Below are positions 4,642 through 10,923 of a stretch of DNA of 10,923 nucleotides, in pieces. This DNA comes from Clostridia bacterium (lineage in GTDB: Bacteria; Bacillota_E; SLMV01; PUMD01), in the NCBI GenBank assembly GCA_007128555.1, contig SKXF01000216.1, positions 1 through 10,923 of the forward strand, in the 5' to 3' direction. Under the pieces are notes generated by a model. The model saw only the letters and a program-made list of their open reading frames with translations, did no database searches and was not told where the DNA came from. The number at the start of each line of letters is the position of its first letter. The first letter of the stretch is position 1. A program made the translations under genes and the position numbers.

Positions 4642-4845
4642 CTAGCCCCCTGCGACCATAGGGAGAATTCGGATCTGGTCATGTGGCCTGACTTCGACAT
4701 CTAGATCTGTCGTTGAGAGCAGCTCTCCGTTCCTCTGGACAACAACCTGAAGCACCTCATAGCCTTCCTCCGCGATCAGATCTCCAATGGTAGTACCTTC
4801 AGCAACATACTGGCTCTTCCGGTTAAGGAGGATTCGTACGGTCAT
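4642..4845 (-). CDS. MoaD/ThiS-like ubiquitin-fold sulfur carrier protein
   Basis: A 67-aa protein that starts MTVRILLNRKSQYVAEGTTI and ends RPHDQIRILPMVAGG. The beta-grasp pattern is clear: a short N-terminal strand, G-T-T-I-x-D-L-I before the helix, VVVQRNGELL, then the D-x-I-x-I-L-P strand and a C-terminal Gly-Gly. In MoaD and ThiS the terminal Gly is adenylated by a MoeB/ThiF enzyme and carries sulfur as a thiocarboxylate. The ATG at 4845 has an AGGAGG site (4856-4861) 10 nt upstream. The gene follows the AOR gene by 52 bp in the same direction. MoaD-like genes are often found with tungsten AOR genes, so a role in making the dithiolene of the tungstopterin cofactor is the likely one. A ThiS role in thiamine synthesis is less likely here, as no thi gene is nearby. 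No activating enzyme is in the window. Confidence 0.85.
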   Translation of the reverse strand: MTVRILLNRKSQYVAEGTTIGDLIAEEGYEVLQVVVQRNGELLSTTDLDVEVRPHDQIRILPMVAGG

Positions 4846-4897
4846 ATCGGCGGAACCTCCTCGATGATGTCGTGAACACATCTCCATAAGCCCTCCT

Positions 4898-6748
4898 CTA
4901 CTGGCACAGGCCCGACAGATCAAGGCGCTCCAGCGTTTCCTGTAGAGGTAAGCCCTCTTCACTCCAGCCGCGGTGTTCGTAATAGTCGGCCAACATGCGG
5001 TCGAAGGGTGGGAGGTAGTCAGCAGCTCCACCCGACTTCCTCCGCAGGCGGAGGATTCTGTCGGGCACCACGTCATCTTTGCGACTGAAGCCTCTTCTGA
5101 CGTTGATCATGCGCTTGAGATTGAAAAGGCGCTCTCCAATCTGCAGAAGGCCCTGAGCATCCACCTCATTGCCCGTGACCCAGGAATACCAGTCAGCAAG
5201 TACGGTCAGCGTCACGCCTCCGAATAACGCGAACTTGCAGACTTTAAGTGAGTCCATACAGGCCATCATGTCCTGTGCCAGCGCAGTCATCTTACCCTTT
5301 CCCTCAGCCTGAAAACGTTCAAGGGGCTCTTCCACACCTATTTCGGGCATGGCCACATTTCGTTCGAAGACGTGAGTGAAACCCTGAAGATGACAGGCCC
5401 CACGATTGGAGGTTGCATAGGCGATGCCGAGACTGGCATACGCACGTGGATCATGCATCGGCACTTCGAGCCCTTTGACATGCATCGAGTACTCAAGAGC
5501 CAGGCCTCCGAGCTGTTCGGCTGCATGCCTGACGCCGCGGCTCAACAGCTCCCCAAACCCCTTCCCCTCAGCAATATCCTGCAACATCTGCAGCAGACCC
5601 GATGCGCTGCCCCACGGAAGTGCATAGCCAATGTCTTCCTCTGTAACGAGCCCTTTAGCGAATGCCTCCATTGCAAACGAGACAGCAGAGCCCGCCGAGA
5701 TCGTGTCCATGCCATAGCGGTTGCAAAGCTCATTGGCCTTGCACACAGCCTCCAGATCATCTACCAGGCACATGGCCCCCAGGCTCGCTCCACTCTCATA
5801 TTCAGGGCCTGCAGACTCATCGCCGGCATAAGGCCCATTTTCCACATGGACCACCCGGCCACATCCTATGGGACAGGCCCCACAAGCAGCCCTACCAGTG
5901 AGATGAGTATCTGCAAGACGTTGACCTGATATAGCCTCAGCGCCATCCACCCACGAACCCTGACTCCAGTTCTTGATCGGCAGATCCCCCACAGCTTCGA
6001 TGGCCTCCATGCCTCCGATCGTGCCGAAGTCGCGCAATGCACTTGTCTTGGAGACAATGTCCCTGGTGATCTTCCGTAAGTGCCTGGTTAGCGCCTGGGG
6101 ATCGCTGGCAACAGGCCCTGGCCCGGTTCCCAGCGCTACCAGCCCCTTTACTCGCTTCGCGCCCATCACTGTCCCGACGCCGCATCGTCCCGCAGCCCTA
6201 GCATCCTTGCCGTCGGTCATGATCGAAGCGTACATAACACCCTGCTCACCTGCAGGTCCGATTACAGCAGTAATCGCTTGCTCGTCGGTCTCTGATCGCA
6301 GAGCCTCGTCCGTCGAAAAGGTATCCTCACCCCAAAGGTGTGAAGCATCTCTGATCTCGCAGCCATCATTGTTGATCCATATATAGACAGGAGCATCAGC
6401 AGCGCCCTTCAAGATCACCCCGTCGAAACCGGCTCGCCTCAACTGTGTTCCCCATCCTCCGCCTACATCCGACTCGGCCCAACAGTTGGTAAGGGGAGAT
6501 ATGGTGCAGATCGCAGTGCGGCCCGAAGTTGGTACAGCACTGCCAGTAAATGGCCCGTTGAATATGACCAGGGGACTTTGGGGACTGAGCGGGTCAGTAC
6601 TTGCGTCTGTGTGGCGCCAGATGTATGCAGCTGCGAGACCACTGCCGCCGATGAACTGCCGCACCTCGTCTGGGTCAAGAGGTGTTGTTACGACGGTTCG
6701 GTGCGTCAGATCGATCTCCAGGATTTTTCCCACGAAGCCATTACTCAA
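4898..6748 (-). CDS. Aldehyde:ferredoxin oxidoreductase (AOR) family tungstoenzyme
   Basis: The family oxidises aldehydes to carboxylates with ferredoxin as acceptor, using a tungsten bis-pterin and one [4Fe-4S] cluster in the cytoplasm. The 616-aa length is usual. The N-terminal pterin domain (about 1-210) opens GFVGKILEIDLTHRTVV and contains FIGGSGLAA (32-40) and ESDVGGGWG (92-100). The C-terminal domain holds the cluster ligands Cys289, Cys292, Cys296 (CxxCxxxC) and Cys504 (DSLKVCKF). It also has GPEYES with Glu316/Glu318, NELCNRYGMDT (339-349) and HDPRAY (432-437), all family hallmarks. The start is TTG at 6748: AAGGAGGG (6757-6764) lies 8 nt upstream, and no in-frame ATG fits. A MoaD-like gene follows by 52 bp. 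The subfamily and true substrate cannot be told; many relatives are uncharacterised or act on other substrates. Confidence 0.95.
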   Translation of the reverse strand: MSNGFVGKILEIDLTHRTVVTTPLDPDEVRQFIGGSGLAAAYIWRHTDASTDPLSPQSPLVIFNGPFTGSAVPTSGRTAICTISPLTNCWAESDVGGGWGTQLRRAGFDGVILKGAADAPVYIWINNDGCEIRDASHLWGEDTFSTDEALRSETDEQAITAVIGPAGEQGVMYASIMTDGKDARAAGRCGVGTVMGAKRVKGLVALGTGPGPVASDPQALTRHLRKITRDIVSKTSALRDFGTIGGMEAIEAVGDLPIKNWSQGSWVDGAEAISGQRLADTHLTGRAACGACPIGCGRVVHVENGPYAGDESAGPEYESGASLGAMCLVDDLEAVCKANELCNRYGMDTISAGSAVSFAMEAFAKGLVTEEDIGYALPWGSASGLLQMLQDIAEGKGFGELLSRGVRHAAEQLGGLALEYSMHVKGLEVPMHDPRAYASLGIAYATSNRGACHLQGFTHVFERNVAMPEIGVEEPLERFQAEGKGKMTALAQDMMACMDSLKVCKFALFGGVTLTVLADWYSWVTGNEVDAQGLLQIGERLFNLKRMINVRRGFSRKDDVVPDRILRLRRKSGGAADYLPPFDRMLADYYEHRGWSEEGLPLQETLERLDLSGLCQ

Positions 6749-7369: not shown

Positions 7370-7798
7370 ATGTCGGTGTCCAAAAGAGCGGCCCTGCATC
7401 GATTGTTGATGCGTCGCGCCTTCCTGTGTGCGACGGACGATGTTGACTACAGTATTGCCTTTCAGCGCAAGCTCGGCGCCGGCTTCTTTGGTAGCGAGGG
7501 ATTCATCATGAAGAGACTATCCGGACCAGGCATGGCTTTCATTGAGATCGATGGCGAATGCATAACCCGGGAACTGGCCTCAGGAGAAACGATTCGTGTA
7601 GAAGCCGGATCGGTTGGAGCGTACGAAGAAACCGTCTCGATGGATATTCAGATGGTCAAGGGGATCGTCAACATGTTCGCAGGCGGTGAGGGACTCTACC
7701 TGACGACCCTCACGGGTCCCGGAAAAGTCTGGCTTCAGACGATGCCGATCCAAAGCATGAGCGGTGAGCTGTCGAACTACCTGGGAGGCAAAAAGTAG
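7370..7798 (+). CDS. AIM24-family protein, apparently lacking its N-terminal half
   Basis: From about residue 17 the product aligns by eye with the C-terminal part of the AIM24/TIGR00266 family. It has AFLCATDDVDYSIAFQRKLG, then GAGFFGSEGFIMKRLSGPGMAF, FIEIDGE, and the closing GGEGLYLTTLTGPGKVWLQTMP. These beta-rich proteins are widespread; their bacterial role is unknown (the yeast homologue is a mitochondrial inner-membrane protein). Family members are about 220-260 aa, while this frame gives at most 142 aa. The first 15 or so residues (SVSKRAALHRLLM) do not look like the family. No ribosome binding site precedes the ATG at 7370 or the in-frame ATG at 7409, and the missing half is not found in any frame upstream. 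It is probably a 5'-truncated remnant, though a short active form cannot be excluded. Confidence 0.7.
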   Translation: MSVSKRAALHRLLMRRAFLCATDDVDYSIAFQRKLGAGFFGSEGFIMKRLSGPGMAFIEIDGECITRELASGETIRVEAGSVGAYEETVSMDIQMVKGIVNMFAGGEGLYLTTLTGPGKVWLQTMPIQSMSGELSNYLGGKK

Positions 7799-9318: not shown

Positions 9319-10245
9319 ATGGATATAGTGAAAACAGCAACACTGGTTCTAATCTGCGGCTTAGCTGTAGTTGCAGGGTGGGCATTTATAGTGAGCGAGC
9401 AGATTGAGAGGTCCATTCTTGATGCCGGGTTCTACGCGGACCTCATGGAGGAGGCTGACATCCCCGTCATTCTTCACGCCCAGATACTGGACAGCCTGCG
9501 GGAGGAAATGCTCGAGGGGGCACCCCCAGACGCTGCAGATGCGTTTGTGAGTTCGCTGGGCACGGCTCTTGAGCCACGATGGATTGGCGAACAGATGAAC
9601 GTGGTTATCAGAGACATGGTAGCCTTCATCAGTGGTGAACAGGAATCACTGACTGCGGTGATTGATCTTCATGAAGTTAAGGAAAGATTCCGGCACGAGT
9701 TAAACACGGCCATTGCCGAACTCCCCGACGAATACCGCGACGACCTGGATTTCCTCGATGATCCCGACGCAGAGCCGGGTGATCTGCTGGACGCAATAGA
9801 TATGCCCGACCACCTTATACTGGAGGAGTTTTGGCAGAATGGAGATGGCGCACTTGGCGAGGTGGCCTCCCGAATTCAGCGCTACCGCAGATATCTCCGT
9901 TGGTTCTCACTGACTGTTCTGATAATACTGATCGTTTTGACTTGCCTATTAGTAGGACCAGGACACGGCCTCCAGTGGTTCGGCGGCGCAACAATACTAT
10001 CGGGCTTGCTGTTTGCCCTGGCGCTTTGGTTAACGGGCTTCGTGCTTTCGCCCCGATTTGCAGAGTTTGATTTTGTTACCGCCGCAGATTTCGCTGATAT
10101 CCCATGGCTTATGACAGCAGTCGAGTTCACCGTGAACCGCCTGTACGCAGCCCCAATCATGTACTCGGGTATCGGGCTCATAGTCCTTGTCGCCGGTCTT
10201 GTTGTGACAAGGATTCGCCCACGGACATCCAACCGAACTGGGTGA
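9319..10245 (+). CDS. Membrane protein of unknown family, four predicted spans with a large acidic loop
   Basis: The 308-aa product has one N-terminal span (about 5-25, TATLVLICGLAVVAGWAF). A long acidic domain follows (about 26-190), probably outside the membrane, with the Asp/Glu-rich stretch DEYRDDLDFLDDPDAEPGD at 137-155. Three C-terminal spans (about 195-213, 221-243, 279-297) precede a basic tail (TRIRPRTSNR). I place the start at ATG 9319, just before the first span. The frame is open upstream to 9085, but those 78 codons cross a terminator-like hairpin and look non-coding. The ribosome binding site is weak (AGGTG 12 nt upstream), so an upstream GTG or CTG start remains possible. The layout resembles loosely defined families whose N-terminal TM is followed by an ExxFYxxxLxxxD-type segment (here DAGFYADLMEEADI), but I cannot name one. 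It stands alone on its strand. Confidence 0.8.
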   Translation: MDIVKTATLVLICGLAVVAGWAFIVSEQIERSILDAGFYADLMEEADIPVILHAQILDSLREEMLEGAPPDAADAFVSSLGTALEPRWIGEQMNVVIRDMVAFISGEQESLTAVIDLHEVKERFRHELNTAIAELPDEYRDDLDFLDDPDAEPGDLLDAIDMPDHLILEEFWQNGDGALGEVASRIQRYRRYLRWFSLTVLIILIVLTCLLVGPGHGLQWFGGATILSGLLFALALWLTGFVLSPRFAEFDFVTAADFADIPWLMTAVEFTVNRLYAAPIMYSGIGLIVLVAGLVVTRIRPRTSNRTG

Positions 10246-10337: not shown

Positions 10338-10370
10338 AAAGAAACCCCGGAATTGCCTGACATTCCGGGG
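10338..10370 (-). terminator. Rho-independent terminator of the tRNA cluster
   Basis: On the minus strand a perfect 9-bp stem, CCCCGGAAT and ATTCCGGGG (10370-10362 and 10353-10345), closes an 8-nt loop and is followed by TTTCTTT (10344-10338). It begins 8 bp after the 3' end of tRNA-Arg, so it ends the tRNA transcript. On the plus strand no T-run follows, so it is a poor terminator for the 308-aa protein gene. Confidence 0.85.
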
Positions 10371-10378
10371 CTTGATGC

Positions 10379-10455
10379 TGGTACGCCCTGGAGGATTTGA
10401 ACCCCCGACCTACTGATCCGTAGTCAGTCGCTCTAATCCACTGAGCTAAGGGCGC
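10379..10455 (-). tRNA. tRNA-Arg(ACG)
   Basis: The minus strand folds as a full cloverleaf of 77 nt. The acceptor GCGCCCT pairs with AGGGCGT (one G-T pair). The D-arm contains TAGCTCAGTGG. The anticodon stem ACTGA/TCAGT holds the loop CTACGGA with anticodon ACG. The T-arm is GGGGGTTCAAATCCTCC, and CCA is encoded. ACG (read as ICG after deamination) decodes CGU, CGC and CGA arginine codons. It lies 8 bp after tRNA-Ser(GCT), so both come from one transcript. Confidence 0.96.
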
Positions 10456-10463
10456 ACGCTATG

Positions 10464-10556
10464 CGGAGGAGGAGGGATTCGAACCCTCGCTAGGGCTTGT
10501 CACCCTACTACAGGTTTAGCAAACCCGCCCCTTCAGCCTGACTTGGGTACTCCTCC
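10464..10556 (-). tRNA. tRNA-Ser(GCT)
   Basis: A 93-nt class II tRNA on the minus strand. The acceptor GGAGGAG pairs with CTCCTCC with G as discriminator base. The anticodon stem CGGGT/ACCTG holds the loop TTGCTAA with anticodon GCT, decoding AGC and AGU. The long variable arm TAGGG...CCCTA is typical of serine tRNAs, and the T-arm is GAGGGTTCGAATCCCTC. The bases after the discriminator are CAT, so the CCA end is not encoded and must be added by the nucleotidyltransferase, unlike in the two neighbouring tRNAs. Confidence 0.96.
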
Positions 10557-10650
10557 ACGTCAATTCTGAGTGCCACCACAATCCGTGGCAGGTATTAATG
10601 CTAGCATATTTCCCGGGTCGATGCAAGGAGCACTGGGGCAACTTCAGCCC

Positions 10651-10799
10651 TGTGTATAACATGTGGAGACTATTCTCGGGCCAAATACTTATCAACATGC
10701 ATTGGCCCTTATCCACACATAAACCCCGAGTTATCAACACTCTGACGGCACCAAACAGCCCTGAAGCCTTATTCCTTCTTGCATCTCAACTGTGGATAA
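10651..10799. promoter_or_regulatory. Cluster of five DnaA-box-like sites
   Basis: Five 9-mers of the DnaA-box type lie within 149 bp between the two serine tRNA genes. TTATACACA is at 10651-10659 (minus). TTATCAACA is at 10689-10697 (plus), TTATCCACA at 10709-10717 (plus) and TTATCAACA at 10731-10739 (plus). TTATCCACA is at 10791-10799 (minus). The first, third and fifth match TTATNCACA perfectly; the other two differ at one base. The spacing of the plus-strand sites is about 20-22 bp, two helical turns. No markedly AT-rich unwinding element is evident in the window. Possible roles are a part of oriC, a DnaA-titrating or regulatory cluster near the origin, or DnaA control of the tRNAs. Confidence 0.65.
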
Positions 10800-10804
10800 C
10801 TATT

Positions 10805-10896
10805 TGGCGGAGGGGGTGGGATTCGAACCCACGGAGGGCCTAAACCCTCGGCGGTTTTCAAGACCGCTCCGATCAACCGGACTCCGGCACCCCTCC
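10805..10896 (-). tRNA. tRNA-Ser(TGA)
   Basis: A 92-nt class II tRNA on the minus strand. The acceptor GGAGGGG pairs with CCCCTCC, with discriminator G and an encoded CCA. The anticodon stem GCGGT/ACCGC holds the loop CTTGAAA with anticodon TGA, decoding UCA and related serine codons. The variable arm GAGGG...CCCTC is long, and the T-arm is GTGGGTTCGAATCCCAC. It is 248 bp upstream of tRNA-Ser(GCT), with the DnaA-box cluster in between; whether it shares that transcript is unclear. The pair of serine tRNAs resembles the serS neighbourhood near the replication origin of many Firmicutes. Confidence 0.96.
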
Positions 10897-10910
10897 GCTC
10901 GTCAACTTCT

Positions 10911-10916
10911 ATTGTA
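10911..10916 (-). promoter_or_regulatory. -10 box of the tRNA-Ser(TGA) promoter
   Basis: TACAAT on the minus strand (10916-10911) matches the -10 consensus at five of six positions and lies 14 nt before the mature 5' end of tRNA-Ser(TGA), a normal distance for a tRNA promoter. The -35 element would lie past the right edge of the window. Confidence 0.5.
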
Positions 10917-10923
10917 ACGTACA

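Follow-up and report, generated by a model that had tools for sequence, protein, structure and literature searches.

A conserved, lineage-specific array of candidate DnaA boxes between two tRNA-Ser genes near the predicted replication origin of a group of Clostridia

DnaA-box-like sites between two serine tRNA genes

The stretch of DNA analysed here (the window; 10,923 nt, contig SKXF01000216.1 of the Clostridia bacterium assembly GCA_007128555.1) carries three tRNA genes near its end, and the interval between the two tRNA-Ser genes contains a group of DnaA-box-like sites. Five such sites had been pointed out in an earlier note made from the sequence, and all five were found exactly where it had placed them, within 149 bp, three as perfect TTATNCACA matches and two with one mismatch. 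Their location between two tRNA-Ser genes was likewise borne out, with tRNA-Ser(GCT) on one side and tRNA-Ser(TGA) on the other, as was the closeness of the last site to the tRNA-Ser(TGA) 3′ end, from which five bases separate box A. The features of the locus are as follows (G numbers denote genomes of relatives; counts of complete arrays include the window):

10379..10455, minus strand: tRNA-Arg(ACG)
10463..10556, minus strand: tRNA-Ser(GCT)
10598..10603, minus strand: -10-like TAGCAT with TGC before it (TGCTANCAT in 8/8 arrays)
10621..10626, minus strand: -35-like TTGCAT of a putative tRNA-Ser(GCT) promoter (TTGC and a 17-bp spacer in 8/8 arrays)
10651..10659, minus strand: candidate DnaA box E2, TTATACACA; the same in G003, with no perfect box here in the other five complete arrays
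10662..10670, minus strand: site E1, degenerate in the window (2 mismatches); aligns with a perfect TTATNCACA of G002, G005 and G083
10689..10697, plus strand: candidate DnaA box D, TTATCAACA, 1 mismatch, 20 bp from C; TTATCMACA in 7/7 complete arrays
10709..10717, plus strand: candidate DnaA box C, TTATCCACA, 22 bp from B
10731..10739, plus strand: candidate DnaA box B, TTATCAACA, 1 mismatch, 60 bp from A; TTATCMACA in 7/7 complete arrays
10791..10799, minus strand: candidate DnaA box A, TTATCCACA; identical in 7/7 complete arrays
10805..10896, minus strand: tRNA-Ser(TGA)

The number of sites with at most one mismatch in the whole window is ordinary (6, against a shuffle mean of 5.94). What had been called far above chance, and proved to be so, is their clustering and the share of perfect matches, as five of these six sites, three of them perfect, lie inside the 149 bp. 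Among 2000 simulated windows (first-order Markov, same composition as the window), none had a 149-bp stretch with at least three TTATNCACA or TTATCAACA sites, and four had one with two.

A second conserved block, a promoter-like TTGC-17-TANCAT with TGC before it, precedes tRNA-Ser(GCT) in all eight arrays. The consensus promoter scan of the window listed no promoter, this site falling below the threshold. Between the two tRNA-Ser genes, the scan listed no terminator-like site in the window or in three relatives (L033, L031 and L035); in these relatives a terminator-like site follows tRNA-Arg and a promoter-like site precedes tRNA-Ser(TGA), at counts near shuffle level. The window scan listed neither a terminator after tRNA-Arg nor a promoter-like site before tRNA-Ser(TGA), and an inverted repeat at 10345-10370, after the window tRNA-Arg, was seen by eye. 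Judged by these signals, the array probably sits in a tRNA read-through zone.

If the interval is transcribed by read-through, the conserved sites might act as RNA, with box A pairing with box C. The two boxes are indeed inverted repeats and were paired by RNAalifold; the stem is without covariation, however, because its eight predicted pairs never vary, and the sole variable position of box C (in G004, G006 and G083) changed without a change in A and was left unpaired. The RNAalifold consensus energy was -4.2 kcal/mol with a covariation term of 0.04, folding of the window strand was no better than that of shuffled sequences (z 0.13), and only the three tRNAs reach the Rfam gathering score in the window. 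We therefore rejected the array as an RNA element, a reading that we consider highly improbable.

Elsewhere in the window, the AIM24-family gene at 7370-7798 seems to be without its first part, with a Pfam match that starts at profile position 95 of 205 (the copy in L004 has 231 aa), and no ORF was judged a gene between ~7800 and 9080. The membrane-type protein adjoining the tRNAs (9319-10242) had itself as its sole match (3 contigs; best 7998 candidates scored) and was thus of no use as a marker. At 4642-6748 an aldehyde ferredoxin oxidoreductase gene, which adjoins a family-5 peptide-type ABC transporter, is followed on the same strand by a ThiS/MoaD-like protein.

Distribution and rigid geometry of the array

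Arrays were found at the same place as in the window in seven relatives, six of them complete and one reduced (G082), all genomes being fragmented MAGs. The tRNA-Arg(ACG)/tRNA-Ser(GCT) junction was found at eight loci of the species-genome collection, five of which carry DnaA boxes at the same place (L002, L004, L005, L006 and L007, all from 'Clostridia bacterium' MAGs; the array of L006 is cut by the locus end), and three of which (L001, L003 and L008) have none at the array position. The isolate names of these MAGs presumably denote soda-lake sediments. The nearest relative, L004 (genome G003), shares 94% identity with the window over 10368-10923, as well as the AIM24 gene nearby. At the level of the class, the triple-box pattern had one match each in 6 of 154 genomes and none with the reversed control. 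Reading 40 further class tRNA-Ser(TGA) loci yielded one more carrier, G082, whose reduced array holds three perfect boxes; the 38 other readable loci contain no TTATNCACA or TTATCAACA downstream, in at most 700 bp of sequence each. Among the 39 loci counted as box-free, L071 is without downstream sequence and L045, L047 and L060 have only 164-299 bp. This class survey has a defined reach, the tRNA-Ser(TGA) pattern being unmatched in 83 of the 154 genomes and 25 of the 71 matching ones being left out. A box beside a tRNA was rejected as a phylum-wide feature, since a T-arm followed by TTATNCACA occurred in just 3 of 398 sampled genomes, namely G003 and two others in which it lies beside tRNA-Glu and tRNA-Ala. 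On this sequence evidence, the cluster is a real, lineage-specific array of candidate DnaA sites. A search of open-licence papers found no description of this tRNA-Ser array, and the main text of PMC4447404, on in vitro DnaA binding in B. subtilis, contains neither the word 'tRNA' nor 'serS'.

When the seven complete arrays were aligned, 33 of the 36 columns of boxes A-D were invariant versus 8 of 142 spacer columns (those outside the boxes, the E region and the promoter), and mean pairwise identity was 0.955 in the boxes versus 0.401 in the spacers; the alignment is anchored on the boxes, so that box identity is partly favoured, and the spacings are independent of this anchoring. The window and G003, two of the seven sequences, are 88% identical, and the counts are unchanged without the window. 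Box C reads TTATCCACA in four of the complete arrays and TTATCCCCA in three. The E region consists of two sites 11-12 bp apart, one of which matches TTATNCACA perfectly in the window, G003, G002, G005 and G083; the better site of G004 and G006 has one mismatch. Position 5 of the perfect E-region boxes is A (window and G003), T, G or C, and this is the free position of TTATNCACA. Such conservation is old, because the serS proteins of carriers are just 66-70% identical among the five relatives compared (77% for G004/G006), a comparison that leaves out G002 and G005, which were missed by the motif, and includes G082 as a partial sequence.

The distances between the boxes are almost fixed in all seven complete arrays (A-B 59-60, B-C 21-22, C-D 20 and D-E1 27-29 bp), unlike the start of box A, which drifts between 5 and 25 nt past the tRNA end. 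This difference bears on a proposal of the earlier note, a DnaA-responsive switch for the tRNAs. In such a switch, DnaA on the array would repress, activate or roadblock tRNA-Ser(GCT)-tRNA-Arg(ACG), or attenuate read-through from tRNA-Ser(TGA), and would thereby tie tRNA supply to the DnaA level. The array does lie upstream of the conserved promoter-like block and right after tRNA-Ser(TGA), with no terminator listed between, and in E. coli, according to PMC10950094, DnaA box 2 of datA lowers read-through. The distance from box D to the -35-like site nevertheless ranges over 70-83 bp in the seven complete arrays (89 bp in reduced G082), including values (71 and 77) that differ by about half a helical turn, and the start of box A varies relative to the tRNA, while the box-to-box distances are fixed. 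Moreover, the tRNA pair needs no boxes, since 21 of the 39 box-free class loci carry a co-oriented tRNA-Ser(GCT) downstream, in 15 of them starting 56-226 bp away. The switch therefore stands as a possibility, but as the main role of the array we regard it as unlikely, the promoter distance drifting where the box spacing is fixed.

Position relative to dnaA and the origin

An origin-proximal position, which the earlier note had suggested, is supported through the synteny of relatives, the window itself ending before serS. The gene order is serS, tRNA-Ser(TGA), array, tRNA-Ser(GCT) and tRNA-Arg(ACG), and the G002 contig extends it to gyrB-gyrA-(AIR synthase-like)-(aldolase-like)-mtnA-serS-tRNA-Ser(TGA)-array-tRNA-Ser(GCT)-tRNA-Arg(ACG); the G003 contig reads dnaA-dnaN-recF-...-gyrB-gyrA-AIR synthase-like (gene names were read from translations, except for dnaA, identified by PF00308, and the tRNAs). 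Overlaying these two contigs, as no single contig spans the distance, puts ~15.8 kb between box A and the dnaA start, and ~14 kb between box A and the dnaA-dnaN gap. The array is thus not directly upstream of dnaA, where oriC1 would lie.

The signs of an origin are found at dnaA-dnaN. In all seven relatives, the dnaA-dnaN gap contains DnaA-box-like sites and, beyond them, CTACTACTA trios with an AT-rich stretch, the trio resembling that reported for C. difficile oriC2 in PMC7561715. The lowest 50-bp GC content is 0.22-0.30 in this gap (oriC2) versus 0.30-0.42 in the arrays, and a trio-like run occurs in none of the eight arrays. GC skew, taken in the dnaA direction, becomes positive near dnaA-dnaN, after negative or near-zero values, in all six of the dnaA contigs profiled (those of the array carriers G002-G006 and of the array-free G001; G082 and G083 were left out), and no turn to positive was found at the array. 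In the G002 contig, read from dnaA towards serS, 31 of 33 1-kb bins are positive; the array is followed by one bin of -0.04 and then by positive bins, and in G005 by two negative bins (-0.09 and -0.02) before the skew becomes positive again. The G003 skew stays positive between serS and a point ~3 kb beyond the array, after which it becomes negative and genes switch strand; this turn is no sign of an origin, because its direction is opposite to that of an origin. Since the trios, the AT-rich stretch and the skew turn all lie at dnaA-dnaN, we ruled out the array as the replication origin, and the same evidence disfavours the earlier idea that it forms part of a split oriC.

Counts of TTATNCACA in G004, G006, G003, G002, G005, G082 and G083 were 5, 13, 31, 26, 34, 52 and 24 (185 in total), and those of the reversed control 10, 14, 39, 28, 23, 26 and 17, so that a genome-wide excess is absent in four of the seven relatives. 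By strict count of perfect sites, the arrays hold 2-4 TTATNCACA per genome. At least two TTATNCACA within 200 bp were found at the array (7/7), upstream of dnaA (G003, G005 and G082) and at one further place in G005; the array is the only such place in all seven relatives, and the only place outside it with three within 200 bp is upstream of dnaA in G005. A similar density elsewhere, which the earlier note had named as a check on its reading, is accordingly rare in these seven fragmented MAGs.

The spacing of the array partly recurs near dnaA. A triple spaced by 20 and 22 bp lies upstream of dnaA in G005 and G002, with the first box inverted (in G002, two of the three boxes are mismatched), and G003 and G082 have a related box set there. 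Within 700 bp upstream of dnaA, G004 (L025) and G083 (L081) have no box with at most one mismatch and G006 (L026) has one; these three genomes keep a complete tRNA-Ser array, and upstream-of-dnaA boxes are present in G002, G003, G005 and G082. In the phylum sample the triple pattern matched 3 of 398 genomes (G003, G309 and, with 20/24 spacing, G469). In the distant G309, a 20/22 triple with its boxes in a single orientation, like that of the array, immediately precedes a gene read as dnaA. The reversed control gave two matches in one genome, G305, which means that chance may produce such triples in some genomes. On these few cases, the 20/22 spacing looks like a DnaA assembly geometry. In G469 (L086, 1480-1553), four DnaA-box-like sites follow one another at distances of 21, 20 and 24 bp, and no dnaA was recognised next to them; this group is perhaps the origin of a mobile element.

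These observations also bear on what binds the sites. Binding by DnaA is predicted from the motif, and in two of the five boxes a C is replaced by A, which would suit another protein sharing the DnaA-box motif, or sites that arose by chance. Against another protein, the free position of the DnaA box is variable among the sites, and the same spacing recurs upstream of dnaA in relatives and in G309; chance is made unlikely by the simulation and the conservation. We give either explanation very little credence.

A remote part of a split origin is a further reading, according to which the array replaces the oriC1 boxes in some members and, looping over ~14 kb, assists the opening of oriC2. It would fit G004, G083 and G006, whose arrays are intact and whose upstream dnaA regions hold no or one box, and bipartite origins are described as looping the dnaA gene out in PMC7561715. 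However, G002, G003, G005 and G082 possess both the upstream boxes and the array, the array shows neither a skew turn to positive nor a trio, and the known bipartite origins treated in that text span only dnaA. We hold this reading to be quite improbable. Also very improbable is that in the G004/G006/G083 lineage oriC1 was lost and the array took over its role, with its DnaA complex looping to the unwinding site and read-through from tRNA-Ser(TGA) timing the assembly; if true, the origin of this lineage would be split across the genes from dnaA to serS.

A candidate DnaA sink behind a tRNA gene

On sequence grounds, the array can be assigned to a known class, DnaA-box clusters outside oriC, as its sites cluster above background and the origin lies elsewhere; judging from the comparisons made here, what would be unusual is its tRNA-embedded, rigidly spaced form. 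In E. coli, datA is situated behind the glyVXY tRNA operon, read-through from which reaches datA and lowers IHF binding there (PMC10950094). Like datA, the array consists of DnaA-box-like sites outside oriC, directly downstream of a tRNA, and it may also be reached by read-through. Unlike datA (at 94.7 min, with oriC at 84.6 min, as given in the same text), it lies ~14 kb from oriC and belongs to an unrelated lineage. An HU/IHF-family protein was found in six of the seven genomes, and the IHF consensus TAANNNNTTGATW had no full match in the eight arrays (best 1-3 mismatches); for lack of a full consensus in the arrays, the array would be a datA work-alike at most, not a datA. Functionally, datA is marked by the stimulation of DnaA-ATP hydrolysis, and DARS1/DARS2 by the reactivation of ADP-DnaA. 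The B. subtilis clusters (Okumura et al. 2012, as described in PMC5295017, PMC11019786 and PMC13220808) are likewise DnaA boxes outside oriC, but there are six of them, whereas here one recurrent cluster with rigid geometry lies in a tRNA-Ser region. With the bipartite oriC of Bacillota (oriC1 upstream and oriC2 downstream of dnaA), the array shares the 20/22-bp triples seen in G002, G005 and G309; it differs in having neither trio nor skew turn and in lying ~14 kb away.

We favour replication control over promoter control because the internal spacing of the array is kept and its distance to transcription signals is not. Of the three options in the earlier note, a DnaA reservoir appears best supported, and our preferred reading, to which we assign a probability of roughly 0.6, is that the array is an early-replicated DnaA sink of the datA or DnaA-box-cluster type, which restrains re-initiation by taking up or inactivating DnaA. 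DnaA would assemble on boxes A-D, set 60-22-20 bp apart, as well as on E. By its position in the synteny of relatives, the array would be copied very soon after initiation, so that its copy number doubles at once, and the doubled array would withdraw free DnaA, or DnaA-ATP, from oriC; a locus this near oriC is suited to a sink for this very reason. At high tRNA output, read-through from tRNA-Ser(TGA) may, by analogy with datA, strip DnaA off the array and so couple initiation to growth.

The DnaA C-termini of all seven relatives contain GGRDHSTVIH, which we take to be the DnaA DNA-binding signature. YabA was detected in none of the seven (controls were positive in 2 of 14, B. subtilis and L. 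lactis); because the genomes are fragmented MAGs, the absence of YabA, or of other clusters, may reflect missing sequence. Against a sink, a set of five or six boxes may not suffice to titrate DnaA. For the B. subtilis clusters, one review assigns no significant role in initiation (PMC5295017); two other papers describe them as inhibitory, or report early initiation upon their joint removal (PMC11019786, PMC13220808).

If the array is indeed a DnaA sink, two distant lineages, E. coli with datA and the present clade, would each have placed one directly behind a tRNA gene. This would support the proposal in PMC10950094 that transcription-coupled initiator control is a general concept, and such control would operate here in genomes where YabA was not detected. 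The fixed 60-22-20 geometry, which partly recurs upstream of dnaA, may moreover offer a template for the number of DnaA molecules per complex and their phasing.
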